Shown here: positions 3,785 through 26,512 of the stretch, one piece after another
Position numbering within the stretch: the stretch's first letter is position 1
How the letters are laid out: the number at the start of each line of letters is the position of its first letter
From: a virus
Length of the DNA stretch: 41,973 bases
IMG/VR virus record: IMGVR_UViG_3300023174_000310
Span: 1-41,973 of that record
Strand: one strand, 5' to 3'
Notes under the pieces: model-generated
What the model saw: only the letters and a program-made list of their open reading frames with translations
Told to the model about the DNA's origin: nothing
Database searches by the model: none
Made by a program: the position numbers and the translations under genes

Positions 3785-6280
3785 TTAGTGAAAGAAATAC
3801 TCTGCTTCAAGAACAGAAGAAATATTTAAAGATCCAATTGCAGGTGTGCTTGGAAGTTCAACCCCTAATGAATTCTCAACTTCTAATTTTAGTTTTTCAA
3901 GCAAAGGTTTTTTATGCATAGCATAAAATTCTTCTCTTGTATACTGACGCATCAATGGAACATATGGAGCAGAACACCCATATGAATCATGGACAAAACT
4001 AAAATTAGTAATACCAGCTGTAAGCATTTTATCCATAGTCATCCACATATGACTTGCATCAAGACTGTGGATATAATTTGGACTTACTGCCAAGTTAACT
4101 TGAGTATCATCAATCTGACTTGAATCTGTAGAACCAAAATGAAGTTCTTTCATGTTGAACAACTTTGCAATTGATCGCCTTGTTAGAATTTCATAATACT
4201 GATGGACGACTTTAAAACCACATGGAGTAGTCCACTCAAGATTTTTACCCATATTGCTTGCTATATCAGCAATTTGCTTTAGCCATACCTTACCATAATT
4301 TGCATTAGTTAAAGTATTCTTTAAGCACTTGTCAATATAAGTAGCCAGCTCCATAACTGCACCAGCAATACGATCTTTATTAACCCAATCCAAATGTCCT
4401 TCAGTCTTACAGTATCTTCGAATACCGTAGAATGTAACACCGTATGGATCTGTCATAACAGCTCTCTTGCATACTGATCTTGGAATTTTGTTATCCCAAT
4501 GATTTAAAAATAACTGTGCCCAATCCTTCGTATCTGGATCTGCATTGTCATCTTTAGAATCCTTTGACATTGAATTAGTCATAGAATCAGCAACAAAACC
4601 ATATAAATCCTGTGGATCTTTATGTCCAGTAAGATTTACTTTATAAGCAAGATCAACATCACGCATAATAGCAGCCCAATGTTGAACACCATTACATGAA
4701 CCATCAATTTGAATTGGTAGTTGAGTAAAACCATCTGTTCTACAAAGTTCAAAGATTGCAGCTAGTCTTTGAAAACTAGGATTCTTTTTCTTTTTGTCAC
4801 TAACCCAAAACCATCGTGTTTCAAATGGATCTTTTGCAGTATCTTGAATAAGATTAAGATTATCATTAACCCATTTAATACGATCTGCAAATGGTAACTT
4901 ATCTTGATCAAACAAATTAGCAAGATGAATCTTTAACCAGTATATACCGTTTTCAGTTTGCTTTATTGGTTTAGCAAAGTGAATTAAACTACGATCAAAA
5001 TCTGAACTCTGTGGTGACAATAAATCACAAGCAGTATAAGCACGACCTCTAAAGTCACATGTGTAGATATGATAAAAGAAATTCCACTTCATCAAATCAT
5101 TTGCAACCTTAAGCCTTACCAACATACGACCACGGGATCGTTCTTCTTTATACCAAGAAGACCAAGACTCTTCTTTACGCTGACACCACTTAGCCTTTTC
5201 TTCTTTTGTTCCAGTTTCAGGATAAGCCTCACCAAAATCAAAAGCATCAAAGTTATACGCTGGAAGATTAGCTTCTCTTGTATTGTTGTGGAACATTGCA
5301 TTCATTACTGCATAGACTTTATAATTAATAGCCCACTCAGTATGCATCAATGCATTCAATCCACGAACAACCATTTCACTAGGAGTAGAGTTTTTTTGAA
5401 CTACAGTCTCATCCCAATGAACATCTCTAAACTTCTGAACAACTGGCTTACGAATCCAAGGCATTAAGTTACCACCAGACGAAGTAACAGTATGTTCAGC
5501 AGGAGGAACAATCATAGGACGATACAGTAGACTTGCTCTTGAAATCAAATCCTTGTGTCTATTATGAAGCTCCCGAAGAAGTTCATCGGTAAAACTTACA
5601 ACAACTCGTTCATACCAACGATTACCAATACGCTTTCTAAAGTTTCTGATGGTAATGATATTACTCATCTCAGCAATACGAAGCATATGATGACCAAAAT
5701 CTTCTCGTTGTTTTCTAGTAAATTGCTTTTTGTTAATGCAATTCATTTTACCAGAAAAAGCACGGCATCGCTTAACAGTCCAATTCTTTTGGTAATGAGA
5801 CTGCTTTAACCAATCATCTCTAAAATCTTTCTTAGCTGCTTGATATGAAACAATATCAATAGCCATGTTAGAAATCTGATGTGCCATATGCTGTGCAGAT
5901 GGTAAAGGTAAGCTATGAATATCTCCATCCTTACCATCCATCTTACGATCCCAAGTGTTTGAGTTAAACCACTCAAGCATTAGACATCGGATAGTAATGT
6001 CAGCCATCTTACCAGCACCAACAGCAAACAAAGGATATGCCCAATCAGGAGTCTTACGATTCTTTGAAACCATATCAATCCACTCTTGATAGAATGGAGT
6101 GAGATGAATAACACAACTATCTAATAGACCTTGTTCAGGATATCCTTCGTCAGGCGATCTGTTATACTCTTCCCAATATCTATTGTTGGAAAGATTTAAC
6201 ATTTCTTCTTCAAGCATTGCTTGATAGTTTTTTCTACTTTCCTGAACTTCTGGCTTTAGTAAATCCCATAACTCAGGCAT
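3785..6280 (-). CDS. Single-subunit DNA-directed RNA polymerase (T7 type)
   Basis: An 831-residue T7-type polymerase (T7 gp1 has 883). Motif A, LPIQIDGSCNGVQH, carries the first catalytic aspartate (Asp526, T7 Asp537). Motif B, KRAVMTDPYG, gives Lys605 and Tyr613 with the same 8-residue spacing as T7 Lys631 and Tyr639; it reads TDPYG where T7 reads TLAYG. Motif C, FVHDSYGC, carries the second catalytic aspartate (Asp765, T7 Asp812). It should transcribe middle and late phage genes from dedicated promoters; the three AGTTGGGGCTA sites are the best candidates here. AGGAGG lies before the ATG. The gene stands downstream of the small-gene region, as in T7. Confidence 0.97.
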   Translation of the reverse strand: MPELWDLLKPEVQESRKNYQAMLEEEMLNLSNNRYWEEYNRSPDEGYPEQGLLDSCVIHLTPFYQEWIDMVSKNRKTPDWAYPLFAVGAGKMADITIRCLMLEWFNSNTWDRKMDGKDGDIHSLPLPSAQHMAHQISNMAIDIVSYQAAKKDFRDDWLKQSHYQKNWTVKRCRAFSGKMNCINKKQFTRKQREDFGHHMLRIAEMSNIITIRNFRKRIGNRWYERVVVSFTDELLRELHNRHKDLISRASLLYRPMIVPPAEHTVTSSGGNLMPWIRKPVVQKFRDVHWDETVVQKNSTPSEMVVRGLNALMHTEWAINYKVYAVMNAMFHNNTREANLPAYNFDAFDFGEAYPETGTKEEKAKWCQRKEESWSSWYKEERSRGRMLVRLKVANDLMKWNFFYHIYTCDFRGRAYTACDLLSPQSSDFDRSLIHFAKPIKQTENGIYWLKIHLANLFDQDKLPFADRIKWVNDNLNLIQDTAKDPFETRWFWVSDKKKKNPSFQRLAAIFELCRTDGFTQLPIQIDGSCNGVQHWAAIMRDVDLAYKVNLTGHKDPQDLYGFVADSMTNSMSKDSKDDNADPDTKDWAQLFLNHWDNKIPRSVCKRAVMTDPYGVTFYGIRRYCKTEGHLDWVNKDRIAGAVMELATYIDKCLKNTLTNANYGKVWLKQIADIASNMGKNLEWTTPCGFKVVHQYYEILTRRSIAKLFNMKELHFGSTDSSQIDDTQVNLAVSPNYIHSLDASHMWMTMDKMLTAGITNFSFVHDSYGCSAPYVPLMRQYTREEFYAMHKKPLLEKLKLEVENSLGVELPSTPAIGSLNISSVLEAEYFFH

Positions 6281-12258: not shown

Positions 12259-12520
12259 TGTCAGTTTCTCCAGAATTTTCAACATAATCACATTGAGTAA
12301 CCATCTCATAATACAATGTACTAACTTGAGACATTTTATAAACTAGCGTACTCATGTGTAGGTTATAACGCCAATCATCATCACCATGACAACCTTCACC
12401 ATTATCTGAATGGTATGGTGCTTTCTTCATATCTTCTGCAATACTAACCATTCTATCGCGCAAACAAATAAGAACGATTTCAAATTGTTCCCCACAAAGT
12501 GTAGTTTCACGATTCTTCAT
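12251..12520 (-). CDS. Hypothetical protein (89 aa)
   Basis: The product starts MKNRETTLCGEQFEIVLICL and contains an acidic, His-rich middle (HSDNGEGCHGDDDWRYNLHM) and a C-terminal helix. TAGGAGAATCAA precedes the ATG, a strong site. It is the first gene after the branched RNA element at 12557-12760, so that element may form its 5' untranslated region. Scattered Cys and His could bind a metal; no family is recognised. Confidence 0.7.
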   Translation of the reverse strand: MKNRETTLCGEQFEIVLICLRDRMVSIAEDMKKAPYHSDNGEGCHGDDDWRYNLHMSTLVYKMSQVSTLYYEMVTQCDYVENSGETDNG

Positions 12521-12556
12521 TTGATTCTCCTATAAGATGGAAAAGAACAGACAAGT

Positions 12557-12760
12557 ACATCGTAGGGGATTCTCCCGAAAGAGAATCCCGTGGCGAACCA
12601 CTTGCCTACCTAGGTTATGGACTACGCGTTTACCTAGTACCCTACATGTGTCTCCTTTGTATAGGTGTAGTTGCTATACAACATATGTGGTTATCTAAGA
12701 GGCTACCACGCGAAATGCCTGAAACACTCCCATGATATTTCTACCATGAGAATGCGGGAG
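12557..12760 (-). ncRNA. Multi-branched structured RNA element
   Basis: No convincing ORF is present. On the minus strand, CATGTAGG (12641-12648) pairs with CCTAC-G-ATG (12558-12566), closing a junction with three hairpins: CTAGGT/ACCTAG; GTGG-TTCG-CCAC, a UUCG-loop hairpin; and GGATTCTC-TTTCGG-GAGAATCC. Further upstream are GTATAG/CTATAC (12659-12679), GTGG/CCAC (12687-12709) and CTCCC/GGGAG (12727-12760). The element lies between a 29-aa gene and the 89-aa gene. It could be a stand-alone RNA, a riboswitch-like leader or a processing module. Confidence 0.55.
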
Positions 12761-12767
12761 AGATCAG

Positions 12768-12857
12768 TTATCCAAGTTTGTTTACATTGTGCAATGCAAC
12801 ACAAGTAATAACAATACAAGTAACAACAACCAAAGCAATGGCAAGAAGCTCAAACAT
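12768..12857 (-). CDS. 29-aa membrane peptide
   Basis: A short frame from ATG 12855-12857 to TAA 12768-12770. The product starts MFELLAIALVVVTCIVITCV and ends ALHNVNKLG. It is almost entirely one transmembrane span. The ATG overlaps the stop of the 123-aa gene upstream by 8 nt, the same coupling as its neighbours, which is the main support. Function unknown. Confidence 0.5.
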   Translation of the reverse strand: MFELLAIALVVVTCIVITCVALHNVNKLG

Positions 12858-13221
12858 TCTCAAACCTCTGAACCTTCTTCATCAGAGCACGATTCAACAT
12901 CTGTTCGATTTCAAGACTTGCCTGCAAATCCTTAACAGTATCCTGCAAAGACTTGACAGTAGAGCGAAGTTCCTTCAACTCAGCATCAGTCAGATCAACA
13001 CCTGCAATGTCTTTCCAGTTCATATCGTTTTCCTTTATTGGTTCAAGAACTTTGGGGTCATACCAACGCTCACCACAACACTCACAGAAATCTGTAGTAA
13101 ACCACTCTTGCTTCTTTAGTTCAGCCCAAGCACCATCCACAGATTCAGCACGAACAACAAACTCAGCAGGGCCAACATAATAGCCTCCGCTATTGTTCTG
13201 AACAAACTTATAGGTGTTCAT
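12850..13221 (-). CDS. Hypothetical protein with a Cys cluster (123 aa)
   Basis: The product starts MNTYKFVQNNSGGYYVGPAE. An N-terminal domain resembles phage proteins with the pattern VRAESVDGAWAEL followed by FCECCGERWYDP (45-56), whose cysteines may bind zinc. The C-terminal half (DLTDAELKELRSTVKSLQDT onward) is a coiled coil. The start overlaps the end of the 65-aa gene by 4 nt. The fold is plausible as a small phage early protein; no function is known. Confidence 0.7.
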   Translation of the reverse strand: MNTYKFVQNNSGGYYVGPAEFVVRAESVDGAWAELKKQEWFTTDFCECCGERWYDPKVLEPIKENDMNWKDIAGVDLTDAELKELRSTVKSLQDTVKDLQASLEIEQMLNRALMKKVQRFENV

Positions 13222-13415
13222 GCTGAAGCCCTATCAATCTGCATCTGAAGGCTTTCAACTTCCTGAGCATAGAGGTTCAATGATTCATACATTGAATCAA
13301 CTAATCCATGCTTATGGAGTGGCAAAGATGCCTTCAGGCGTTCACGGAAACCTTCCTGAAGAGCAATGATACAACGGTTAGTTCTGTCTCGGAAGTTTGA
13401 CGAATGCTGAATCAT
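13218..13415 (-). CDS. Hypothetical helical protein (65 aa)
   Basis: I chose the ATG at 13413-13415, preceded by GGGAAAGGTTTGCAC. The product starts MIQHSSNFRDRTNRCIIALQ and continues with helices (EGFRERLKASLPLHKHG, MYESLNLYAQEVESLQMQI). The longer frame to 13562 crosses clear RNA hairpins and is rejected. A small hairpin (CCGGC-AAT-GCCGG) lies immediately upstream of the ribosome site and could modulate initiation. It is the first gene after the large RNA region. Confidence 0.65.
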   Translation of the reverse strand: MIQHSSNFRDRTNRCIIALQEGFRERLKASLPLHKHGLVDSMYESLNLYAQEVESLQMQIDRASA

Positions 13416-13608
13416 GTGCAAACCTTTCCCGGCATTGCCGGATAAGAGAGTGTGATTTATGTCTACAGTTATTCCATAAGGAATAGTTAGAGTCCTTACA
13501 CAAGACCCAACATTACAAGGTTTACCACAAACCCTAGTTACTTCTACAATCCCAAGGCACACAAAGAGGGTGCTACTTGTTGCAGAGATAGTGACTATTC
13601 AACTGAAA

Positions 13609-13640
13609 GATATCCATAGGATGTTTCACCTAGGGATACC
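13609..13640 (-). repeat. 32-nt covarying hairpin, copy C
   Basis: The minus strand starts GGTATCCCTAGGTGAAACAT and ends CCTATGGATATC, followed by TTT. Same length, closing stem, GG/CC collar and GTGAAA loop as copies A and B, but different middle-stem bases (C-G, T-A and A-T pairs). Confidence 0.75.
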
Positions 13641-13812
13641 CGATCTGATCCTATTATATTCTTCTAGTGGATCAGCTAGAGTATACTATGAACGGCATAC
13701 AAGCGTTGATCTATTGTTGGTTTGGATTCTTTCCTAGTGCTCCAACCGCATAAGGAAGAACCAATAGATCAGTAAATACCCCCATTCACATCCGTCGATA
13801 TGAATGGGACGC

Positions 13813-13905
13813 ACTATGCCTAAAGTCTATTTATACTCGCATAGTCGAGTGTTATCTCTATAATATAACTATTGATGGATTAGAGATAACAACAACCTCC
13901 ATCAA
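13813..13905 (-). other. Two loop-to-flank pseudoknots within the giant RNA
   Basis: First, the 10-bp hairpin at 13851-13890 has TCCATCAA in its loop (13872-13879), complementary to TTGATGGA at 13898-13905. Second, the hairpin ACTCG/CGAGT at 13835-13850 has loop ACTATG, complementary to CATAGT at 13813-13818. Both are perfect over their length. Confidence 0.6.
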
Positions 13906-14167
13906 CCATTGTCCCCTAAATGGCCTACCATAGTGGGAGGACTACTAATCCACTACTACACTCTTGCGGAGCGTTTCCCATATTGGTTTGCAGCCAATAC
14001 AGAATCCTATTGTGTTCTTCCCGTTGCAACGGTTCACACCTTGAAGTTCATGTATGGTTTGACCTTCCTACCATAAAGGGATACAACATTTGGATATGTT
14101 TGGGGTAGTATCATTCCCAAACACATAGTTATTCTGTACGCTCACGACAAGCGCAATATCGGGAACT

Positions 14168-14210
14168 ACCCTTTGCTAATACTTTACGGGTTGATGGTTA
14201 GCAAACCATC
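14168..14210 (-). other. Kissing-loop pair within the giant RNA
   Basis: Two adjacent hairpins have complementary loops. One is GATGG/CCATC (14193-14210) with loop TTTGCTAA; the other is ACCC/GGGT (14168-14191), whose loop holds TTAGCAAA (14172-14179 region). The eight loop bases are fully complementary. Confidence 0.6.
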
Positions 14211-14237
14211 CATAGAATCTTGTCTATGGTCAATAAA

Positions 14238-14269
14238 GATATCTCATGGGTATTTCACCGTGAGATACC
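14238..14269 (-). repeat. 32-nt covarying hairpin, copy B
   Basis: The minus strand starts GGTATCTCACGGTGAAATAC and ends CCATGAGATATC, followed by TTT. It sits at the tip of a longer helix made by AGAATCTT/AAGATTCT (14214-14284) and TATGGT/ACCATA. Middle-stem pairs T-A, C-G and A-T differ from A and C while pairing is kept. Confidence 0.75.
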
Positions 14270-14481
14270 ATAAGGGAAGATTCTGTGGTGTCATCGTATT
14301 AGTTGAGTAGTGTTCACGGTACTTGCATAGTTGAATCCTATGGTGGATAACCCTATGCAACACATAGCGACCTACTCTTTACGGTTCGCTTCCACAATCC
14401 TGCCTAGTTACGTGGGTAACAACTCCCGCCCGTGCTTTCTCCAATACTGAAATGGAGGGCGTGACCTACAGTACAGGGAAA

Positions 14482-14513
14482 GATATCTATGGGGTATCTC
14501 ACCCGTAGATATC
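14482..14513 (-). repeat. 32-nt covarying hairpin, copy A
   Basis: The minus strand starts GATATCTACGGGTGAGATAC and ends CCCATAGATATC, followed by TTT. The 8-bp base is perfect. It begins 7 nt after the stop of the 74-aa gene, marking the 5' edge of the large RNA region; it could also end translation-coupled transcription. Confidence 0.75.
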
Positions 14514-14519
14514 AGAAGA

Positions 14520-14744
14520 TCAGCGAATCACGATCATCTTATCCTTCGCATTCCACGACACAGGGGCAGCCTTGTCGATCAGGAGGATAGCCAACACCAC
14601 ACGCTTTCCGCTCACCTCATTAGGCTGTACACCATACTTGACAGACAGGAAGGATCGAACGCGGATAATGAACTCCGCGATACCCTTGCGACTACCGGAC
14701 AGATTCACCCATTCCTTGCGCCAGTCGATACGATGGTGATCCAT
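14520..14744 (-). CDS. Hypothetical protein (74 aa), GC-rich gene
   Basis: The product starts MDHHRIDWRKEWVNLSGSRK and ends NAKDKMIVIR. I chose the ATG at 14742-14744, preceded by GGAG; the long N-terminal extension of the frame is Arg/Leu-rich and overlaps the 94-aa gene, so it is rejected. The protein is basic with a helical middle (GIAEFIIRVRSFLSVKYGV) and a strand-like end. Base and codon use is far more GC-rich than in most of the phage. It lies between two structured RNA regions. No family is recognised. Confidence 0.65.
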   Translation of the reverse strand: MDHHRIDWRKEWVNLSGSRKGIAEFIIRVRSFLSVKYGVQPNEVSGKRVVLAILLIDKAAPVSWNAKDKMIVIR

Positions 14745-14776
14745 AGTGTCTCCATTTCTCCCATGAAAGGGATAAA

Positions 14777-14796
14777 CCCCGGTATTACTACCGGGG
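14777..14796 (-). terminator. Hairpin between two small genes
   Basis: The minus strand reads CCCCGGTA-GTAA-TACCGGGG, a perfect 8-bp stem with a GNRA-type GTAA loop, followed by TTTATCCCTTT. It lies in the 70-nt gap between the 94-aa and 74-aa genes. The T-tract is broken, so it may attenuate transcription or protect an RNA end instead of terminating fully. Confidence 0.55.
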
Positions 14797-14814
14797 AGAA
14801 TCCATGCCATTGGA

Positions 14815-15099
14815 TTAGAGGCCAAGGTCGATAGAGACAGACAGAGCCTCGGCCAACTTGCGGGCATTGCGAGCCTCAGCATTCTCCACACTAGCGGGAA
14901 TCGAAGCCTCCACGAAAGTCTGCCACGCAATCTGATTCGTGGTAATCGTGCAGCCAAAATAGTCTTCGATCTTGCCACGAATCACGGTAGCGTTGCGCTT
15001 ACCCTTGTTCGACAGAATCCCCGCCTTCACCAGCGCATTGAACACCTTCACGACACAGGCACGCTGATCAGCAATCGACAGACTGTTCCACTTGTTCAT
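14815..15099 (-). CDS. Hypothetical protein (94 aa), GC-rich gene
   Basis: The product starts MNKWNSLSIADQRACVVKVF and ends LAEALSVSIDLGL. The ATG at 15097-15099 is preceded by AAGGATTCCGA. It is helical and basic in the first half (NALVKAGILSNKGKRNATVI), with a possible DNA- or RNA-binding helix-turn-helix layout (GKIEDYFGCTITTNQIAWQT). Codon use is GC-rich, like the 74-aa gene and unlike the rest, suggesting the pair was acquired together with the surrounding RNA region. No family is recognised. Confidence 0.65.
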   Translation of the reverse strand: MNKWNSLSIADQRACVVKVFNALVKAGILSNKGKRNATVIRGKIEDYFGCTITTNQIAWQTFVEASIPASVENAEARNARKLAEALSVSIDLGL

Positions 15100-15124
15100 T
15101 CGGAATCCTTGCCCATTCCGGGCG

Positions 15125-15800
15125 GTTATAGTAACCCTATGCACCAGACCATCTGATGCATGGGATTCGATACCCTACCATAGCAGGATACCGAATCCCC
15201 CCCGAACAGGTTGCCAAGGATTCCTGATATTCACGCTGTATCTTTCGGGAACCATGCGGGTGCATGGACTCGGTACTCGACCATCGCTAGAAAAGAGCAG
15301 GAATCCACCCATTCGGGGAGGATCGGAAATAGTAAACATTGGCTGTACACTTGCATGGTAGCGGATTACGCCGAAGCATTACCATGCACGCCCATTTCGG
15401 GCAGCCTTGACCAGTCCACACACACTAGCGGCCCCCCGATCATGCGGGGGCCATTGCGCCTTTTGGGCACTAGGTGTAGAATCCGGGCCAACCATCCAGT
15501 CGCGTGGATGGAAAAACCGCGTAGGCGATACCCTCGACCTCGCATCGTGTGCATCACGCAGGGGATAACTGTTACCTTGTTGCCGCCCAACTAGCGCGGA
15601 GTCCAACATAGAGTACTGGTTTCACCACCCATGATGCCCTTGCGGGTCATTAGAGATCGTTGAATGTCGCATTTGCGCCCCACCCCCGCACAACTCGGGG
15701 GACACCCCATCATAGCGGATACCCAATTCCCCACTAAACCATTCCGAGGGTTTAGCGTTATCGGCCCCTTGGATGTAGGCCGTCCGATAACCTGCACAGG
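15125..15800 (-). ncRNA. GC-rich hairpin array, no credible gene
   Basis: Overlapping frames exist on both strands, but none has a ribosome site with a plausible protein. Instead there is a run of stems: GTTA/TAAC (15125-15135); ATGCAC.. (15139-15161); a 14-bp stem with a 10-nt loop (15162-15199); CCATGC-GGGT-GCATGG (15252-15267); TGCATGGT/ACCATGCA (15352-15388) holding GCG/CGC; GGCCCCC/GGGGGCC (15430-15452); CCATCC/GGATGG (15492-15511); CCCCCG/CGGGGG (15683-15701); CTAAACC/GGTTTAG (15734-15755); and GTTATCGG/CCGATAAC (15757-15791). The last two and many others abut without spacers. It may be one folded RNA or a terminal region. Strand is assumed from neighbours. Confidence 0.45.
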
Positions 15801-15901
15801 GCCGTGTCCGGTAACGCGAGGGGGGGCACGGGGGGACGCGCGCGGGGGATTTAGGGGGATACCCTCTTATAAATTTTTGACCCCTAAGCCGATTTTCCAA
15901 A

Positions 15902-15974
15902 CTCTCCCAGATGGACTTGAACCAACGACCCGAGAGTTAACAGCTCTCTGCTCTACCGACTGAGCTATAGGAGA
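15902..15974 (-). tRNA. tRNA-Asn (GTT)
   Basis: Acceptor TCTCCTA/TGGGAGA (one T-G pair), D-stem GCTC/GAGC, anticodon loop CTGTTAA (anticodon GTT), and T-arm with loop TTCAAGT. Discriminator G, no CCA. It is the first gene downstream of promoter P3 and stands alone, away from the other tRNAs, at the head of the structured-RNA region. Confidence 0.95.
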
Positions 15975-15979
15975 ATGTA

Positions 15980-16109
15980 CCCCTTAGGTATCTGGGGCTA
16001 CCGTAGGGGATTGTATTATTCAATTTATATCGAAATCGACCGGGATCATAGTGTAGTGTTATTTTGTATTGATTACAATGAATCCCCTTAGATCCCTTTC
16101 GGGAACTAA
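15980..16109 (-). other. Structured leader upstream of tRNA-Asn
   Basis: No gene. Three pairings are visible: CCCCT/AGGGG with inner GGTA/TACC (15980-16009); GGGGATT/AATCCCC (16006-16012 with 16081-16087), which competes with the first; and TTAG-A-TCCC/GGGA-A-CTAA (16088-16109). The competing stems could form alternative structures in a leader between P3 and the tRNA, or mark a processing region. The bases between are AT-rich. Confidence 0.4.
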
Positions 16110-16145
16110 AGGTATAAATACAAATATTTTAAAAACTATAGAATT

Positions 16146-16178
16146 CCCATAGGAGTATCTTAAGGATACCCCTATGGG
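16146..16178 (-). terminator. 13-bp hairpin after the late operon
   Basis: CCCATAGG/CCTATGGG and GTATC/GATAC stack with one A-C mismatch and a 5-nt loop, 27 nt past the stop of the 3435-aa gene. A T-run (TTTTT) follows about 10 nt later on the minus strand, so it is an imperfect intrinsic terminator. It also lies just downstream of P3 and would sit near the 5' end of that transcript as a stabilising hairpin. Confidence 0.55.
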
Positions 16179-16179
16179 A

Positions 16180-16198
16180 AATATCTATAGCTCCAACT
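16180..16198 (-). promoter_or_regulatory. Candidate phage RNAP promoter P3 (diverged)
   Basis: The minus strand reads AGTTGGAGCTATAGATATT. It shares AGTTGG-GCTA and the ATAG step with P1 and P2 but differs in the last third. It lies between the end of the late genes and the small-gene region, a natural promoter position. Weaker evidence than for P1 and P2. Confidence 0.4.
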
Positions 16199-16204
16199 AT
16201 TTGT

Positions 16205-19200
16205 TTACTGATTATTGGACATGTCTTTCAATAGGTTGGCCAAGTCTGTAGATACACCTTTATTATTGGTATATGTTATTGGTCTTTGTATTGAATTCTT
16301 TCTATCTTGTAAGAACTTGTTGGTTTCTTCTAGGTATCTAGCTCTATTATCCTTTAGTTTGTTTTCAATTTCTCTAGACTGAACTGGGACAATATTATGA
16401 TTACTAGTTACATTCTCAGGTTTATTAATATACTTATTCTTTCCTTTTTGGATAAGCTTAAGATATTTATTTAATGAGTTGTTTTCATCAATTACTTCTA
16501 GTTCTTGTAATAACCTAGCTGGTACTGCAACTGGGCTTTTATTGAATGTAATGTTATAAGGAATAATATCACCAAACTTGGCAATCATTTCTTCCTTAGA
16601 CATTTCACCACCCCTAGCTAATAATTCCTTACCAGAACCCATTGCCTTGCTTACATAAGCATTGAGTACACTAAAGGCTGGAGGAGAAATTGGGTTTGAG
16701 AATCCCTTGTAGGTTCCTCCAGTTAGTTCTGAGAAGGTAGCTAGCGTTCCTGAGAACAGGCCGGATAGAGAACCAAAGACTGGGAGTGTACTAGCCATTC
16801 TAAATACTGATGTACTTGGGTCTTTTAACTCTTCCTTAATATCTTTAACATCTCTGCCATTTAACCAATCTATTATAAGTTCAGACATATATGTTAAAGC
16901 TGAATATAGAATAACTATTTCAGCTAGAACAACTGTTGGTTTCTTTAGCTGTAGATTTTCAAGTACACCGCTTTTGAATGATTGTGACCATTGCAATAGC
17001 GATCTAATAAATCTACCAATACCAGTTTTAGAGGTAATTGAAATATCTTTATTTAATCCTCTTGATTCTGAAATTAAACCATCAGTTGAGATCTGTGTTT
17101 CAAGTGCGTACACGAAATCACTAAAGGCTTCATCTAATACTTCTTTTGGAATAGGACCAATGGGGCCAGTCATATAAGCATCTACCTTTGCTTGTAGTGC
17201 TGTTAGATTAAAGACTCCATTCTTGTTAGTTCCTGTTTGTTCCATGATATACTTTAGTGCCTTTAACTTATCAGCATCTAGTAATCTAAATCTCATAAAA
17301 GTTAAAGCATGATCCCAGTTACCACCAAACCCAGCTTCTCTAGCTAGTTTCTTTTGAAGAGCTGCTAATTGTCTATCTGCCTTTTCTGAAGTAATAGACA
17401 ACGCTTGTAGTCTTTCTAGTTCTGCTTTATTGGCTGGATTTTCCATTAATGCCAACAGTCTTAAAGCAGCTCCGTTTACAATATACTTAGCATTTCTTTG
17501 TGTAAATCTTCCTAGTGCAAAGTGTTTTGAAATACCAGTAATATACTTTACTGAACCAACTTCTACACCAAGATTACCTATTGTTTCAAGAGCAGCTGTT
17601 AGTTTATTGCTATCTTCTCTTGTCTTAGTCAATCTTTTCCACCAACTATCATTTAAAGATGGAACACCTGAAACGGAGTTTGTTTGTAAATATCTATCTT
17701 CAATTTCAGAAAGATAACTACGAATTCCGTGTACGGTTAAGAATGCTTGTTGTTTTAATGCTTCTGATGGTCTTCTATCTAAGAACATCTTAAATACACC
17801 AAACGCATTATTTATAGTTTCTTTAATACCAACTTCTGGTAGTGCTGTAATAACATTGATAAAGGATTCAGCAGTGCTACGAAGACCCCAACCCTGACCT
17901 GATGTTGCTCTTAGAATACCACCAGCAGATCTACTAAGTTGTTCTCCTGTCTCACCGTATGCAGACATAATGCGGGGATTTCTACCAGCATATTCAGCAT
18001 AATCTTCAGCGAGTCTTTTCATACCACCTTGAAGATCTTTCTGTAGTGATTCATTTGATCCAGCCATTCTCATTAGTAGTTTACTGGCTGCATCAAATAG
18101 TTCATAGATACGAACACCCTTTACACCAAGCATTCTATCCAGTTCTGCTTGTACTAATAATTCAAAACCTCTATGGTTAATTAGATTATCATAAGCAGCT
18201 AGTGGGTTGGTTCTGATAATATCTTTTATTAGAGGACTATTAAATACTTCCTTCCAATCAAGATTCTTAACAGCAAATCCTTGATTATCTCCACCCTTAC
18301 CAAATAATTGTAAGAATGCATTATCACCCATTTCTGGCTTTTGAATATATCTATGGTAATTACCTTCTCTTAATTTAAAGGCTAGTAGTTCTTCCATCAT
18401 AACTTGAAGAACTGGTTTTGTATTACCAAAGTTAGCCTTCCATTGATCTGCAATGTGAGTAGTAACTCCATCTACTGTTTCCATATATCTAGCTAAATCT
18501 CTTGGACTTAGATCGTCTACCTTTTCTGGAATAGCACAGATTACAATTTGACCTGTTGCTGGATCTTCATAAGAGAAGAACTTAGTATCAGCTTCTCTTC
18601 TAATTTCAGGAATCTTCTTAAGATCAGTACCGGGAGCATATCGTCTATTACCAGCCTTAGCCTCTAGTCTTGAAAGAGTATCAGCATCAAAACCAGTCTC
18701 TCCAATATGTAGTTGATCTCTACCTTCCTTACCACGGTTTGTTAATGGGTTTGATTCTGTATCCCATAACCAACCCATAGCAAGCATAATACTACGATCT
18801 AATGTTTCATCGTTTCTAATAGTATCTTTTCTTACTCTAACCATTTCATCAACGATTTGAGTACGGTCATTCTTAGTTACTTTATCACGATCAAATGTTA
18901 GTGCAAAGTAATTTTCGGCTGGAACTGGATTACCAGCGTCATCCTTAATACTAATCCATTCAGTAGAATTTTCTAGATCTAGGATGAACTTATTTCTACG
19001 AATTGTTTCATCTCTTAGATTCTTTGCTGAAGTAAAGACAGCATCAATGTATGCTGGTTGAGCAGCTGAGTTAATAGCAAGAACTGCTGTTTGAATATCT
19101 GCTCTTTGTAGTGGTCGTTTAGTTGATACTAAAGATTTAACAATTTCTAGTTCAACTGCTTGCATTACTCGTAGATCTCCTGTTTGAATAGCAAGATCTC

Positions 19201-22200
19201 TGTTTAGTGTAATTAAAGCTCTCTTTGATCTTTGAACCTGATTAGCAACACCTTCCCAAGTTTTAAATGCGTGTGTACCAGACTTTACTAACTGGTGTGT
19301 CATTACCTTTCCGTTTTCTGCCATTGAAGAAAGCCATCGTAGTAGGTTGTTCATACTACGAAGAGTTTTGCCTTCACCAGTAGCAAATGAGGTAAGACCA
19401 GACATCCAACTTAGTGTTTTTCTAAATGCGTTTCTATTTGTCTTTTCAGATCCTCTAAACAAACTAGCAATCCAGTTAGTAGATCTAAATACTTCTGTAT
19501 GCTCTGTTGCTAGGTTATTTAAGAAGTTAATTAAGATACCTTGTGTTGGTGGTAGCTTTTCTGGTTCTATATCAATTAGTACACCCAAACCTAAATCTCT
19601 TTTAGCAGATTCAATATCTACTTTTACTTTTGCTCCAGCATAAGTTTGTGCTGCATAACTACCCTTTTTCATTCTAACTTTATCAGGATAATTTAGTGTA
19701 ATGTTATCTGCACTAAATACAAAATCATGTGGAGATGGTGGTCTAGTAAACTCTGGTAACTCTGTGCCATATCTTGCGTTATAAGACGCAATAGCTTGAT
19801 CAGTCTTTGCTTTTGCAAAGTCTAGAATTTGATCCATAGTCTTTACTGAGATTTGTTCAGTTGGAGTACTTCTTGCATCTAGTTCTTTTGCAATTTCAAT
19901 ATCATAGTATGACCAGAAAATATTATTAATTGTTTCAAACCTAGTACCAAACTTTTCTTGATTAATATTAGAAATTGTTGAATAGATGTTATATACTTTA
20001 TCTAAGAAGTGTAAGAATTGATCTGGAATTGTTTCAATCTTTTTACCAAGATTTTCTCTTAATCCAGAAGTAATTCTATGGAAGTTAAGTAGTAGAATCT
20101 TAACAAACTTAGGATCTGTTCCAGAGTTTCTAAGTAAAGATTCTCCAGCCATCATCTGAGCATCAAACTTATCTACATCATTAAGAACAACTGTTTCAGC
20201 TTTTCCTGCTTTAATTTTTGGATCAGTAGCTGGTGTTCTACCAGTCTTTGGGTCCATATCAACAGGAAGTTTTTCTGGATTAACTACTGGCTTATCTATA
20301 ATAACTTTTGGATCGTCAGCTACAGGAGGTTCTATTGGTTTTCTTATTACTGGTAGTCTACTAGTTGTATCAAGCGTTGTTTCTTTCTTAACTACACCTT
20401 CTTTAGTTGGAACAACAGCTACAGTTTTCTCTTTTTTCATAAAGCTAACTAAATCAATATTTTGTTCTTTTAAAATATCAATTAATGTTGTTTCTGGTGT
20501 TTCAGATTCTTTTACAATAGAAATTAAAATATCTTTTTCTAAACCAAAATCAGAAAATCGTTCTTCTGGTGTTGCTTCTAAAGCAGAAATAATATCTGGT
20601 TTATCTAAAACTAAAGTTAATGTTCTAGTAGTACTTTTAACCTTTGTTGTACTTACAAAAATTGGTTCAGTTTTATCTGCTGATACAGTTACTTTATCTT
20701 CTGGTAATAGTACAGAACCACCTTTAATTGAATCATCTTTAGTTTCACCAGAAACAAACATAACAGTTTCTCCAACTTCAGTTTTAACTTCTGGCATTGC
20801 TACTGGAAGTTCAGTTGTTTCTTTTGAAATAGCAGCTTCAATATTAGTTCTAATTTTTCTAGATGCTTCTAGTTTTGCTCTAGCTTCTTCTAATGAAACA
20901 ACCTTTGGTTTTTCTTCACCACTAAGAATAGCATCAGACTTTTTGGCAAGAACTGCTTTTGCTGTTTCTGTAATATTTTCAGTTAAAGATGTTGGTCTTA
21001 CTTCGTCATTAACAAGTTTAATTTCTCCATCAATCTGCTGTACTTGTTTTCTTAAAGCAGCCTTAGCATTCATTACTTGTTTATCAGTAATTCCAAGTAG
21101 TTTTGCAATACCCTTATCAGTTACTTCTGGGTTGTTTTGTTTAGCAATTAAATACTTAGAAACTATATCCTTTACATTTGGCGATAGTGTTGTTTGTGTA
21201 ACAATAGAAAGAACAGTTTCTGCTTGTTCTTTAGAAATTGGTTTACTACTTTCAACCGCTATTCTTGCATCAGGAATATTAATTTCTTTTCCATCTTCTC
21301 TAACAAGACCATAAGAAACTTTTTGTGCTTTGCGCTTTTGTTTTACCGCAGCTTCTTTTGCTACATTATTAGCAAAACCAAAAGCATAATTAAACTTTTC
21401 TTTTTCTGTAGTCATCTGAGACAAGGCAGCATTAACCTTATCTCTATTCATAAGAATTTTTTCAATGACTTTTTGTACTAGGTCTTCTACAGATTCTGTT
21501 TTAATACCACTCCAGTTATCTTTTAAATACTTTCTAATACTAGCACCAAGTTTTGTTTTTGCTGTTACTTTTAGACCGGATACTCCAGCTTCTCTTTCTT
21601 TTTTAGTAGATACTGTTTTAGTTACAACCTCTCCAATCATAGTTACAAAGGTATCAGCATCTTTAATTTGACCAATGTCTTCTGTTATGTATGTATCAGG
21701 AATTTTAACTTCTTCTTGTTTATCTGGTACTTCTACAACCTTTTCAACTAGCTTTCTTTCTTTCTTAATCTTCTTTTTCTTTTCATCAACAAGAAGACCA
21801 GATAGTGCTTTAGCAAATCCATCAATATCTGGATTTTCTTTTGCTGCATTTAATAGCTGTGCTTCAAATGCTTTATCTGTTTCAAGACGCTGGAAAACTG
21901 GTTGTAGGCTAAATACCTTACCTACTTCTGTGTCTTTCATGTAAGTTTCTAGTAAATACTTAATAATACTATTTTCAGTAGTTGTATCTAATAAAGCATT
22001 TATAAGAGTATCAAAATCTTTAATACCATGTGGTTGGTTTGGGTTTCTAGATAATTTGGTTACTATTATATTATCATTAAATACAAATTCTCTTGCAAAT
22101 CTTTCTTCAATACCGGATAGAATTAAGTTTTCTGTGCTTTGATATAACTTGTGATCAATAGTAATTCCAGTATACTCTGCAATATTATTTAATACATCTT

Positions 22201-25200
22201 CAAAGAAAGTAAATTGAGTTAGGTATTGTCCAGCAATAGTTTGTGTTGTTTCGTATGCTTTATCTACAAAGAAACTACCAATTTTATTTTGTAAAATTTC
22301 AGTAGCTTCTTTATCGTTTTTAATTCGTTTTAAAAAGTCTACAATACTATTAACATTTCTATACATCTCAGCCATAGTAATGTTTTCTTCAAATAAAGAC
22401 GGTAAAACAAAGGCAATAGATTTTGCTTTATATCTATCTGAAAGATCAGATAATTCTATAAAGTTTTTTATAAAATCTGTTTGAGTATTAAGAAGCTGTT
22501 CTCCTGTTGGAGAAAACATTTTATAGTAGTTTGCTTGTAATAGTTCTTGTACTTTATCTGGAATTAACCAATAAGATAATGCTAGTAAGTTTGTATAATA
22601 ATCATCTTTATATGCAATAACCTCTTTTATTAAATCTTTAATGTCAGAGTCTACAAAATTACTTAAGCTTTCTACCTGTTCTCTATTTAATGTACCATCA
22701 TATAATTTTGTTACTAACTTTCGTTGTACTTCTCTTACACTAGTAGCATCTAAAGTTGTTTCTGCAATTATATCAGCAAGTAATTTAGATGGTGTATCAA
22801 CCGATGCTTTTTCCATTAAAGTTTCAAAAATAGAATCTATATAACTAGTGTAAGAAATACCATCAAAAGTTTTTCCAAGGTTCTGTGCTAATCTTGTTTG
22901 AACCCTCAATGAGTGTAATCCTAAAGAAGCTGAATTAGTAACAGTTCTATAATCAATTTCATCAGCTACTTCAATTAAACCATTAATAATATTATCTAGA
23001 TCATTAAATTCTGATTTTCTTATAATATTAGATAGTTTACCCCATACATCTTTAATAAACTTAAAGAATGGACTCATTACTCTTGTAAGTAAGCTTTGGT
23101 TTTCTAGTTTAGATATTGCTTCTACTGATCTAGAATAAACAAGGCTTTCAAACATATTTGCAAAAAATTCTGCTACATTTCCAAAAGAATAAACAAAATT
23201 ACCGTTTAAATTTCCCTTTTCAAACACTGCGTTATCAAGATCAGTAAAGAATCTTACTAAATCAAAATCTACATAATCTGAGTATGCTTTATATAATTCT
23301 ATTTGTTGATCAATATCTAATACGAATGAGTAGATATGACCCAGTTCGTGTAAAGCAACTTTAGTTATTAAGTGTGCTGTTTGGTTTGGTGTTAAAGAAC
23401 CAGCTTCAGCTCCTTTTACTATTTCATTAACAAATACAGAAAAACCAAATTTAATTTCTCTTACACCAGCATCCGGTAGTGCTTCACCATAGAGACCACT
23501 TTCACCAATTCTTTCTAAATAAGTTACTAGTTTAGTTGGATTTAGTTTTAAATTAGCAATAGCAGAAGCAATTAACTTTACTGTTTTTTCTTTAAGTTCT
23601 TTTGCAGCTTTAATATCAGTATGTGGGAAACTATTATCAAAATATTTTTGTAATACTTTTTCAAAATAATTTATAAGTTTTTCATGTTCTGGTGAAATTT
23701 TCTTAGCAAAAGAAATATCTGTAAATGCTTTTTGTGCTTTCTTTGTTTGAGCAGCATTTAATGATCTTGGTTTAGTCTTTCGATTAGCAAGAATAGCATT
23801 TTCTTTTTGCTTTAGTTTTCTAACTAATGGAGAATCTGTGTCTTTAACCTTTAGTGTTTCAGTTGGTTTTTCTTTACCAAAAAGATATTCACTTAATGCT
23901 TTTCTAAACTTTCTATTGAGATTTTTTTCTTCGTTAATACGACGATCAAAATCTTCTCTTGAAACATCTTTATATTTTTCAGCTAACTCTAAGAATTGAG
24001 TTTTCTTTTCATTGCTTAAAGTAGAGAAGCCTTTGTTTTCTTTTCCAATTAGATCTCGTTCTAGTTTTTGTAAATCGGCAATGTGTCGATTTAAGTTTAT
24101 TTCTTGATCTGTAAACCAAGTAGAGTCTTTGGCTGTTCTTCCACTTTCTTTTAATTGCTTAAGAACATCTAAAGATCTTGTTGCAAGTTCTTTTATTTTT
24201 CTAATCTTCAAATAAGGTTTTGGTTCAGCTTGAATAGTTTTAATATCTTCAGCTGTTGCTACAACTCTTAACCAATCCTTTTCATCTTTTATTTGATTAG
24301 CATCAATAGATCTCTTACCGTAATCTAAAATACTTTCTCCAGTAACCTTATTAAAGATTGGGGACTCTGGAGCAGAACCTAGCTTACCTGCTCTACCGTC
24401 TTCTTTAATTGTAGCAGAGTCAGCTGCTTTTTCAGCATCGCTAGCAATTCGTTCTAGTCTAGTAGGAACCTCTCCAGTAACTGGAGGCAATCCTTCTACC
24501 TCAACAGCTCTAATCTTAGCTTCATCTAAACTTAGTTTTGGTATTTCATAGATACCATCTTCTCTTCTAATATATACATTTTCAATAGTGTTTTGTTTTG
24601 CTGTTTCATCTATCTTTCTAATTTCATCTTCTCTAAACTTATACTTAGTACCTTCAATATCAATGTCTATTGTTCTAACACCTTCTACTGCTGGTACGGC
24701 TGTAATTGGATCTACTTTAGTTTCTTCAACAGCTAAGGTAGCAGTTTCAATAATAGCATCTTTTGTAAGTGGAGTTGGGCTAGTAACAATAGCATCAGTT
24801 CCTTCTGGTGTTTCTAAACGAGCAACGCCAGTTTCATCTGTTTTTTTAAATAGTTTATTTTTTAATTTACCAAGTCCTTGAGTTGCGCCATATAAACTTG
24901 TTCCAAATAGGAAACCTACAGTACCAGCAATAGCTAATTCTTTTTTAGAATACTCAAATTCATGGTCTGTTTGAAGACCAGTCATTGACATAGCTATTCT
25001 TGTTGTTTGGTCCTTTGCGCTTGCAATTGTATTTAATACAGCACCAGAACCACCAATATAACTAAGTCTTTTTAAATGACCCATCTTTTGCATAAAGCTT
25101 GGTAGTTCACCTGTTGCCAACGCGGTACTAATACTAAGTCCTTTTTGTACAGCTTGTAATGATTTTTGTAGTTTGATTGCTTTATTAGTATAACCAGCTG

Positions 25201-26512
25201 CCTTTAGTGCTGCAAGTCCACCCTTTGCTGCTGTTCCAAAACCAGCAGTAGCTACTGTGGCTGCAATACCAATTCCAATGTCTGGATCATTAACAGCAAT
25301 TGTTGGAAGATCGGTAATAAAGCCAATAATATCTCCAACAAAATTATCAAATAGTACACTATCTTTTTGGTATGCTTCTATTTTTTCTTGAAGAGTTGAT
25401 TTAAATACTTTATCCTGTAATATAAATAAAGCATGATCCTTATTGTTTGTTCCAATAAAATCAATACCATCAATACCCTTTTTTGATAAAGTTTCTTTTA
25501 CTTCTTTTGGTAGATTAAGTTGATTAAACCACTTTGCTCCATCAAAGTTTGGATCTTTTTTATCAATAAGCGTTTTAAGATCGTCCGCAATTGATCCAAC
25601 TCCCTGTTCAAAAATATCAAAACCGCTGTTATATTTTGCTAAAGATAATTGAATTGCTGATTGTTTAGCATATTCATCGTCTAAGTTATTTTTATATAGT
25701 GGGTTGTCAAATGCGGTATCAACCAAAGCACCAATAAGAGCGTTACCAGATAGATAACCACCTTCAGCTTGTGTAGATAACATCCATCTACTGATTGAGC
25801 CAGCATCTATAAATGCTTTATTTCTTTCCTTAAATTGTTCTAGTGTCATTGGTTCTGGTACTATATGTGATGGAATTTCTTTACCATCATACTTAATATC
25901 TACACCACCACTAGATGACCATGCTAGCTTGCCTTCTGCTGTTTTTGGAACACCTTCTTCATAGTAAGCAACTGGTTCATTATCATTACCAAGATTTACT
26001 TTAACAGCTTGCTTTGCTGCTTTAATTTGATTTAAATAATCATTATAATCCTTTTCAACCTGATCCATGTTTTCAATTAATGGGTTTTGAATCTTGAAAT
26101 AAGGACCACTCCAATATCCTCTCTTTGCTCTCTCTAAAGCAAATCTATCTACATCTCTGCCTAAGAAACCAGAACCAGCTCCTCCAGTTAATAGATAGTT
26201 TGCTTTTCTAAATTCCCAAAAATCATCATTGTTTGGTTTTTTAATTGACCAATTTTCCTTTGAACTAATAGCCTGTAGATTAGTATCAGGCATTACACCA
26301 TAACGCTCTGCTTCAGCTCCTTCTAGTGTATTAAAAGTAAATGGAGCTGTTAAGGTTTGCCAGTTATTAAAGAAAGACCTACCAAACATTACTGGAGCAG
26401 TTGCTGTAAAGTAAAGTTCTGGTAGTTCTTGTTCTGGTTTATAGTTAACACTTGGACCTAGTTGAAAATTAAAATTATTTAAACCATCAATGTTGATTTT
26501 TTCTGTACTCAT
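16205..26512 (-). CDS. Giant internal virion/polyvalent protein: zincin and sigma-like domains
   Basis: A single 3435-residue frame, the last late gene, in the place of T7 gp16. Visible parts in order: a hydrophobic Gly/Ala segment near 410-435 and another near 525-550; charged coiled coil; a zincin metallopeptidase with HELGH at 1055-1059 and a downstream NVAEFFANMFE that would supply the third zinc ligand; a segment near 1655-1830 resembling sigma-70 regions 2 and 4; a Pro/Lys-rich linker near 2030-2110; long helical regions; and a hydrophobic C-terminal segment near 3190-3215. Giant phage proteins with such metallopeptidases are called polyvalent proteins (Iyer, Aravind and colleagues). 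It is probably ejected with the DNA. AAAGG precedes the ATG. Confidence 0.9.
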   Translation of the reverse strand: MSTEKINIDGLNNFNFQLGPSVNYKPEQELPELYFTATAPVMFGRSFFNNWQTLTAPFTFNTLEGAEAERYGVMPDTNLQAISSKENWSIKKPNNDDFWEFRKANYLLTGGAGSGFLGRDVDRFALERAKRGYWSGPYFKIQNPLIENMDQVEKDYNDYLNQIKAAKQAVKVNLGNDNEPVAYYEEGVPKTAEGKLAWSSSGGVDIKYDGKEIPSHIVPEPMTLEQFKERNKAFIDAGSISRWMLSTQAEGGYLSGNALIGALVDTAFDNPLYKNNLDDEYAKQSAIQLSLAKYNSGFDIFEQGVGSIADDLKTLIDKKDPNFDGAKWFNQLNLPKEVKETLSKKGIDGIDFIGTNNKDHALFILQDKVFKSTLQEKIEAYQKDSVLFDNFVGDIIGFITDLPTIAVNDPDIGIGIAATVATAGFGTAAKGGLAALKAAGYTNKAIKLQKSLQAVQKGLSISTALATGELPSFMQKMGHLKRLSYIGGSGAVLNTIASAKDQTTRIAMSMTGLQTDHEFEYSKKELAIAGTVGFLFGTSLYGATQGLGKLKNKLFKKTDETGVARLETPEGTDAIVTSPTPLTKDAIIETATLAVEETKVDPITAVPAVEGVRTIDIDIEGTKYKFREDEIRKIDETAKQNTIENVYIRREDGIYEIPKLSLDEAKIRAVEVEGLPPVTGEVPTRLERIASDAEKAADSATIKEDGRAGKLGSAPESPIFNKVTGESILDYGKRSIDANQIKDEKDWLRVVATAEDIKTIQAEPKPYLKIRKIKELATRSLDVLKQLKESGRTAKDSTWFTDQEINLNRHIADLQKLERDLIGKENKGFSTLSNEKKTQFLELAEKYKDVSREDFDRRINEEKNLNRKFRKALSEYLFGKEKPTETLKVKDTDSPLVRKLKQKENAILANRKTKPRSLNAAQTKKAQKAFTDISFAKKISPEHEKLINYFEKVLQKYFDNSFPHTDIKAAKELKEKTVKLIASAIANLKLNPTKLVTYLERIGESGLYGEALPDAGVREIKFGFSVFVNEIVKGAEAGSLTPNQTAHLITKVALHELGHIYSFVLDIDQQIELYKAYSDYVDFDLVRFFTDLDNAVFEKGNLNGNFVYSFGNVAEFFANMFESLVYSRSVEAISKLENQSLLTRVMSPFFKFIKDVWGKLSNIIRKSEFNDLDNIINGLIEVADEIDYRTVTNSASLGLHSLRVQTRLAQNLGKTFDGISYTSYIDSIFETLMEKASVDTPSKLLADIIAETTLDATSVREVQRKLVTKLYDGTLNREQVESLSNFVDSDIKDLIKEVIAYKDDYYTNLLALSYWLIPDKVQELLQANYYKMFSPTGEQLLNTQTDFIKNFIELSDLSDRYKAKSIAFVLPSLFEENITMAEMYRNVNSIVDFLKRIKNDKEATEILQNKIGSFFVDKAYETTQTIAGQYLTQFTFFEDVLNNIAEYTGITIDHKLYQSTENLILSGIEERFAREFVFNDNIIVTKLSRNPNQPHGIKDFDTLINALLDTTTENSIIKYLLETYMKDTEVGKVFSLQPVFQRLETDKAFEAQLLNAAKENPDIDGFAKALSGLLVDEKKKKIKKERKLVEKVVEVPDKQEEVKIPDTYITEDIGQIKDADTFVTMIGEVVTKTVSTKKEREAGVSGLKVTAKTKLGASIRKYLKDNWSGIKTESVEDLVQKVIEKILMNRDKVNAALSQMTTEKEKFNYAFGFANNVAKEAAVKQKRKAQKVSYGLVREDGKEINIPDARIAVESSKPISKEQAETVLSIVTQTTLSPNVKDIVSKYLIAKQNNPEVTDKGIAKLLGITDKQVMNAKAALRKQVQQIDGEIKLVNDEVRPTSLTENITETAKAVLAKKSDAILSGEEKPKVVSLEEARAKLEASRKIRTNIEAAISKETTELPVAMPEVKTEVGETVMFVSGETKDDSIKGGSVLLPEDKVTVSADKTEPIFVSTTKVKSTTRTLTLVLDKPDIISALEATPEERFSDFGLEKDILISIVKESETPETTLIDILKEQNIDLVSFMKKEKTVAVVPTKEGVVKKETTLDTTSRLPVIRKPIEPPVADDPKVIIDKPVVNPEKLPVDMDPKTGRTPATDPKIKAGKAETVVLNDVDKFDAQMMAGESLLRNSGTDPKFVKILLLNFHRITSGLRENLGKKIETIPDQFLHFLDKVYNIYSTISNINQEKFGTRFETINNIFWSYYDIEIAKELDARSTPTEQISVKTMDQILDFAKAKTDQAIASYNARYGTELPEFTRPPSPHDFVFSADNITLNYPDKVRMKKGSYAAQTYAGAKVKVDIESAKRDLGLGVLIDIEPEKLPPTQGILINFLNNLATEHTEVFRSTNWIASLFRGSEKTNRNAFRKTLSWMSGLTSFATGEGKTLRSMNNLLRWLSSMAENGKVMTHQLVKSGTHAFKTWEGVANQVQRSKRALITLNRDLAIQTGDLRVMQAVELEIVKSLVSTKRPLQRADIQTAVLAINSAAQPAYIDAVFTSAKNLRDETIRRNKFILDLENSTEWISIKDDAGNPVPAENYFALTFDRDKVTKNDRTQIVDEMVRVRKDTIRNDETLDRSIMLAMGWLWDTESNPLTNRGKEGRDQLHIGETGFDADTLSRLEAKAGNRRYAPGTDLKKIPEIRREADTKFFSYEDPATGQIVICAIPEKVDDLSPRDLARYMETVDGVTTHIADQWKANFGNTKPVLQVMMEELLAFKLREGNYHRYIQKPEMGDNAFLQLFGKGGDNQGFAVKNLDWKEVFNSPLIKDIIRTNPLAAYDNLINHRGFELLVQAELDRMLGVKGVRIYELFDAASKLLMRMAGSNESLQKDLQGGMKRLAEDYAEYAGRNPRIMSAYGETGEQLSRSAGGILRATSGQGWGLRSTAESFINVITALPEVGIKETINNAFGVFKMFLDRRPSEALKQQAFLTVHGIRSYLSEIEDRYLQTNSVSGVPSLNDSWWKRLTKTREDSNKLTAALETIGNLGVEVGSVKYITGISKHFALGRFTQRNAKYIVNGAALRLLALMENPANKAELERLQALSITSEKADRQLAALQKKLAREAGFGGNWDHALTFMRFRLLDADKLKALKYIMEQTGTNKNGVFNLTALQAKVDAYMTGPIGPIPKEVLDEAFSDFVYALETQISTDGLISESRGLNKDISITSKTGIGRFIRSLLQWSQSFKSGVLENLQLKKPTVVLAEIVILYSALTYMSELIIDWLNGRDVKDIKEELKDPSTSVFRMASTLPVFGSLSGLFSGTLATFSELTGGTYKGFSNPISPPAFSVLNAYVSKAMGSGKELLARGGEMSKEEMIAKFGDIIPYNITFNKSPVAVPARLLQELEVIDENNSLNKYLKLIQKGKNKYINKPENVTSNHNIVPVQSREIENKLKDNRARYLEETNKFLQDRKNSIQRPITYTNNKGVSTDLANLLKDMSNNQ

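Follow-up and report, generated by a model that had tools for sequence, protein, structure and literature searches.

A candidate modular array of structured RNAs, punctuated by a conserved hairpin, in a T7-like phage

Large gene-free structured regions, often close to tRNA genes, are known in phages from the GOLLD and ROOL RNAs, the function of which is unknown (PMC12286853). A stem-rich stretch of about 1.1 kb in the genome of a T7-like phage raises the question whether such a region encodes one giant RNA, as an earlier note on this DNA proposed, or several smaller RNAs placed side by side.

The gene-free region and its strand

The window, which is the whole stretch of DNA analysed here, is a virus record of 41,973 bases whose main genes are all on the minus strand. 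It encodes a T7-type single-subunit RNA polymerase (3785-6280) and a T7-type terminase, as expected of the T7-like phage named in the earlier note. Six tRNAs are present in the window, and tRNA-Asn is found at 15901-15975 (minus), about 1.4 kb upstream of the region as had been claimed. The structured RNA region lies between two small minus-strand genes, at about 14519-13416. It had been placed at 13430-14516; the location is correct, but the exact limits are slightly wider, from the upstream stop codon to about 13416.

14520..14744, minus: upstream small gene (left boundary), an open reading frame with its stop codon at 14520 and no family match
13218..13415, minus: downstream small gene (right boundary), an open reading frame with a ribosome-binding site and no family match

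The absence of a credible gene was borne out. The longest minus-strand stop-to-stop frames measure 30-60 aa, and the region has no conserved reading frame: the few differences between the window and L009, one of the related contigs retrieved with the RNA polymerase as query, are spread evenly across codon positions. The density of stems is also beyond chance, as had been supposed. In the region, ten perfect Watson-Crick stems with 8 or more bp inside an 80-nt span were counted. One hundred dinucleotide shuffles gave 0.99 such stems on average (maximum 5), and six control windows from the same genome gave 1-4 each. The fold z of 13425-14420 on the minus strand is -8.60, much better than shuffled sequence, while 12 controls of 996 nt elsewhere in the genome range from +0.3 to -4.3. 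Windows of 1 kb separate the region well, whereas z-scores of 250-nt windows separate it poorly because stems are cut by the window edges. Since the plus strand scores almost equally (-8.4), folding energy does not decide the strand. The minus strand is identified as the RNA strand by the gene direction, a ribozyme match and the G.U bias of a repeated hairpin, both described below.

In an Rfam scan of 12400-16300, GOLLD, ROOL, OLE and HEARO were all absent at E up to 10, and nothing of interest besides the Pistol ribozyme and tRNA was found either at gathering score or at E up to 10. Weak microRNA-type matches at 16121-16203 are due to chance, caused by a long hairpin. Thus, the description of a dense, gene-free structured RNA region near tRNAs that is neither GOLLD nor ROOL holds, and the rest of the region, apart from Pistol, is outside every Rfam family.

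The punctuating hairpin

A repeat search detected a 40-nt direct repeat in the region, which was identified as a hairpin on inspecting relatives. It consists of a 12-bp stem, a conserved GAAA-type loop, UGAAAUAU or a shorter variant, and UUU on the 3′ side of the stem. Three copies are found in the region:

14482..14513, minus: punctuating hairpin 1, GAUAUCUACGGG-UGAGAUAC-CCCAUAGAUAUC then UUU (CM R1, 54.9 bits; covariation over 21 copies)
14238..14269, minus: punctuating hairpin 2 (CM R1, 54.5 bits)
13609..13640, minus: punctuating hairpin 3 (CM R1, 58.0 bits)

Copies within one genome are nearly identical, and comparison between genomes shows covariation. When 21 copies found in nine contigs are compared, 96.4% of cells are paired. 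Double changes are seen in 28 cells, where shuffled controls give 7.6 and slid controls 2-7. Among the first 20 copies, 32 G.U but only 4 A.C cells were counted. The 32 G.U cells would be A.C mismatches on the other strand, so the conserved entity is the minus-strand RNA. CM R1 recovers all copies at 47-64 bits, solely in the islands and on the gene strand, with the next best match at 20 bits; as the model was built from the copies themselves, the informative part is the absence of others elsewhere in the relatives' records. The hairpin pattern had no match in 84,980 bacterial and archaeal genomes.

The hairpin is also found in more distant phages. In contig 3300036770_001519 (G006), whose polymerase is 42% identical, a single hairpin is found in some 240 nt of gene-free DNA about 6 kb upstream of the polymerase; its relative position matches that in the window. 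In contig 3300035661_000293 (L040), with a polymerase 78% identical to that of G006, one hairpin precedes the equivalent gene and lies at the 3′ end of some 500 nt of gene-free DNA, which has a fold z of -5.5. In both, letters of the stem are changed and the pairing is preserved.

What, then, does the hairpin do? A role as a processing or end signal has about an even chance of being right. None of the known nuclease sites could be recognised in the hairpin, and the scanned proteins yielded no phage ribonuclease; stems of 12-14 bp are short for RNase III. The hairpins might instead be transcription terminators, or pause sites of a phage polymerase, that end each RNA. Indeed, they are stable, lie between units and always carry UUU on the 3′ side. 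However, their tail is short and their stem rich in A+U compared with the terminator consensus, and none of the three was among the sites flagged by a scan for intrinsic terminators (a G+C-rich stem, then at least 5 T in 8), which makes this explanation very unlikely.

Several other candidates were rejected. A hammerhead reading of GAAA...UC lacks the CUGAUGA partner. The stem and loop lengths of an N4-type hairpin promoter differ from those of the hairpin, and the window's 3435-aa protein has no polymerase family match. In L019 and L021, the hairpin TATAGGGGGT-GAAAT-ACCCCCTATA followed by T6 scores 17 bits and is probably an ordinary terminator of an unrelated phage.

Modules and the Pistol ribozyme

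The hairpins divide the region, which holds the following parts, most of them referred to here as modules:

14410..14481, minus: module B, with a core (14428-14472) conserved in 6 contigs
14272..14405, minus: module A, a rod-like structured RNA of about 134 nt (4 distinct homologues; RNAalifold; CM R2)
14050..14237, minus: module D, structured, within the low-energy region, found in the window only and without a homologue in relatives
13851..14049, minus: module E, which accompanies the Pistol module on its upstream side and is shared with L009
13774..13850, minus: Pistol self-cleaving ribozyme (Rfam RF02679, 57.3 bits, gathering score 34.5)
13642..13778, minus: 3′ domain of module P, three stems, predicted Pistol release product (RNAalifold; covariation with L008 and L014; CM R3; fold z -4.1)
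13446..13608, minus: module C, from the last hairpin to the leader of the next gene, cleanly absent from L008 and L011

In a hand-made structural alignment of module A with 4 distinct sequences, 133 of 140 cells are paired and double changes occur in 11 pairs; its main helices agree with RNAalifold. In the core of module B, ACUG...CAGU is invariant, and a possible pseudoknot between these two motifs would cross a GCCC/GGGC stem. The stretch containing module E is 409 nt long with 98.8% identity to L009, in which a hairpin immediately precedes it.

Pistol ribozymes have a known association with phages (PMC4604425), and the array element shares this trait. The match is full length (model positions 1-68 of 68) and agrees with the consensus of sequence and structure, including the pseudoknot; by both, the element is clearly a Pistol member. 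Two pseudoknots had been claimed for the region, of which only that of Pistol gains independent support here; one in module B is plausible. The cut is presumably between G13779 and U13778. Matches of 57-60 bits were also detected in L008, L009 and L014, with differing surroundings. What differs from known cases is that Pistol makes up the 5′ portion of the module here; the module is exchangeable and continues into a conserved 3′ domain of its own and a hairpin. Fold z values of module P are -4.1 and -5.1, and compensatory changes are found between the window, L008 and L014, in a hand-made structural alignment of 3 distinct sequences in which the P3 stem of Pistol is counted. Covariation, which the earlier note had named as a check, is thus present in modules A and P as well as in the hairpin.

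The 3′ domain of module P has no Rfam match, and none was found downstream of the Pistol ribozyme of Cellulosimicrobium phage DS1. In that phage (MW590223; L036:1501-1960), a 66-bit Pistol ribozyme starts a gene-free stretch of about 450 nt, which was rejected as a relative of module P as it is not homologous. The nearest published case of ribozymes trimming phage RNAs is that of theta (HDV-like) ribozymes beside phage tRNAs (PMC10879173). The two cases would be alike in that small ribozymes trim RNAs from a multi-RNA phage transcript, and they differ in that the ribozyme here belongs to another class and the RNA predicted to be released is not a tRNA. No HDV-family match was found in the region, and the module does not adjoin a tRNA as a theta ribozyme does.

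Module exchange, the array model and neighbouring islands

The order of modules between hairpins differs among relatives, though the flanking DNA is often about 95% identical:

Window: hairpin-B-A-hairpin-D-E-Pistol/P-hairpin-C
L003: hairpin-A-hairpin-B'-hairpin-C
L009: hairpin-B-A-hairpin-F-hairpin-E-Pistol/P-hairpin-C
L008: hairpin-B-Pistol/P-hairpin
L011: hairpin-F-hairpin
L014: hairpin-B-A-hairpin-C, with a divergent Pistol/P in the next island, near L014 3160-3421

Junctions without a hairpin are B|A and D|E in the window and B|Pistol in L008. Of the ends of blastn matches, 56% lie no more than 10 nt from a hairpin, compared with 10.7% when the hairpins are shifted. The first figure is inflated by hairpin-only matches; for matches of at least 80-120 nt only, the values are 37-38% and 10.6%, reached in 0 of 2000 shifts. 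As the contigs are few (about 10) and all related, these counts are not independent and are descriptive rather than proof. In a blastn search of 50,697 phages, matches were limited to tRNA-Asn and the Pistol core; short matches to Konstantine and crAss-type phages (E about 5) were ascribed to chance.

The claim of one giant RNA does not stand up to these comparisons: Pistol lies in mid-region, the hairpin occurs in three copies, and segments are independently present, absent or replaced in relatives. A single ornate RNA of about 1.1 kb, forming a new class functionally like GOLLD and ROOL with the hairpins as internal elements, is unlikely. The contiguous low-energy region, the phage host and the nearby tRNA would all suit it, and GOLLD likewise has one conserved and one variable part (PMC12286853). 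Against this, a mid-region Pistol would cut such an RNA, its modules are found singly, reordered or in other islands (L003, L008, L011 and L014), and the GOLLD and ROOL models gave no match. Likeness to these RNAs is in setting only; the array here differs in having several modules, a repeated hairpin and an internal ribozyme. GOLLD is a single RNA of roughly 800 nt that forms homo-multimers, and module exchange argues against a GOLLD-like single RNA here. Instead, distinct structured RNAs are very probably arrayed here as modules, together with an RNA hairpin that is conserved.

The clustering of homology breaks at hairpins and the near identity of copies within a genome would also be explained if the hairpins were mainly sites of DNA recombination or mobility, like integron cassettes or REP-type elements, with no role as RNA. 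This is improbable, as it leaves the strand bias of G.U over A.C unexplained; the compensatory changes, the conserved loop and the 3′ UUU suggest RNA, and no integrase, transposase or Cas protein was recognised among the scanned proteins. Alternatively, the modules may be cis-acting leaders that control the small downstream gene at the level of translation or stability. The next gene has a ribosome-binding hairpin into which the last module extends, and in G006 and L040 one hairpin lies directly before a gene. However, one and the same gene follows different modules, one and the same module stands before different genes (L003 versus L014), and 1.1 kb with a self-cleaving ribozyme is too much for a leader; there is little chance that this accounts for the region.

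Returning to the modular array, we consider it fairly probable that it acts as a polycistronic noncoding RNA array whose units are marked by hairpins, one of these units being freed by Pistol. The array and its neighbouring genes would be transcribed together, by a polymerase of the phage or of the host. The hairpins may set or protect individual RNA ends, as a nuclease entry site or an end-stabilising structure, and RNA ends would then be expected after ...GAUAUCUUU at the hairpins and also where Pistol cuts. Self-cutting by Pistol would generate the 5′ end of an RNA composed of the 137-nt P domain plus hairpin. Recombination between near-identical hairpins may cause modules to be gained, lost and exchanged.

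Genes in conflict with hosts typically turn over fast. Because the modules turn over fast, our preferred guess is that the released RNAs most likely act in trans against host or defence factors, and for the same reason the array is a natural place to seek RNA-based counter-defence. Such RNAs may serve in host interference, as decoys of defence systems or in regulation. A type III toxin-antitoxin RNA or decoy role is possible; ToxI-type antitoxin RNAs consist of pseudoknot repeats in tandem, and no such tandem arrangement was seen here.

Phage noncoding RNAs are known mostly as single families, whereas one locus here holds several apparently undescribed structured families. The array looks like a previously undescribed way of storing and swapping phage noncoding RNAs. 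Phage tRNA arrays, integron cassettes and CRISPR repeat arrays also combine interchangeable units with common structured separators; this is an analogy only, and unlike in those arrays the units here are varied structured RNAs. No comparable arrangement was found in the literature searched, which is weak evidence of absence. More tentatively, there might be a genus- to family-wide system in which an open-ended range of structured RNAs can be swapped for one another, the hairpin serving all of them as joint and end signal, with ribozymes assisting their release and hairpins guiding recombination. If true, this would be an RNA counterpart of phage accessory-gene islands. The hairpin model can serve as a search key for further islands of this kind.

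Other structured elements are found near the array. The next noncoding island (12723-12540) is opened by a hairpin of a second class:

12724..12755, minus: second hairpin class, with a 14-bp stem and a GAAA loop, followed by UU

In this island (window 12540-12755, minus), a conserved structured stretch with GGCAAGTGGTTCGCCACGG follows the hairpin, and relatives insert various extra RNA domains. Farther upstream, directly after the gene of a 3435-aa open reading frame (16205-26512, minus; it matches no Pfam family above cut-off and may encode a giant virion protein), two strong hairpins and then a conserved CCCGGTCGATTTCGATATAA stretch are found at 16085-16204 (minus). The latter could be a promoter for the tRNA and the RNA region; a mismatch k-mer search found no repeated phage promoter. 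A second gene-free structured slot is located at 15331-15700 (minus), between tRNA-Asn and the gene at 15144-14815. In L004 (1525-1850) and L008 (1475-1800) it holds a common RNA, about 320 nt long, in which many stems are compensated, in the window and L014 a different G+C-rich sequence (fold z -2.4), and in L003 and L009 a protein gene instead; it has no Rfam match at gathering score. Finally, uncalled tRNA-like elements with the T-arm GGTTCGANTCC and an acceptor-like stem are present at L009:3328-3480, L014:3600-3745 and L031:2030-2085. Among the loci checked, this T-arm string is otherwise found in called tRNAs, and the element of L009 has a fold z of -5.7.
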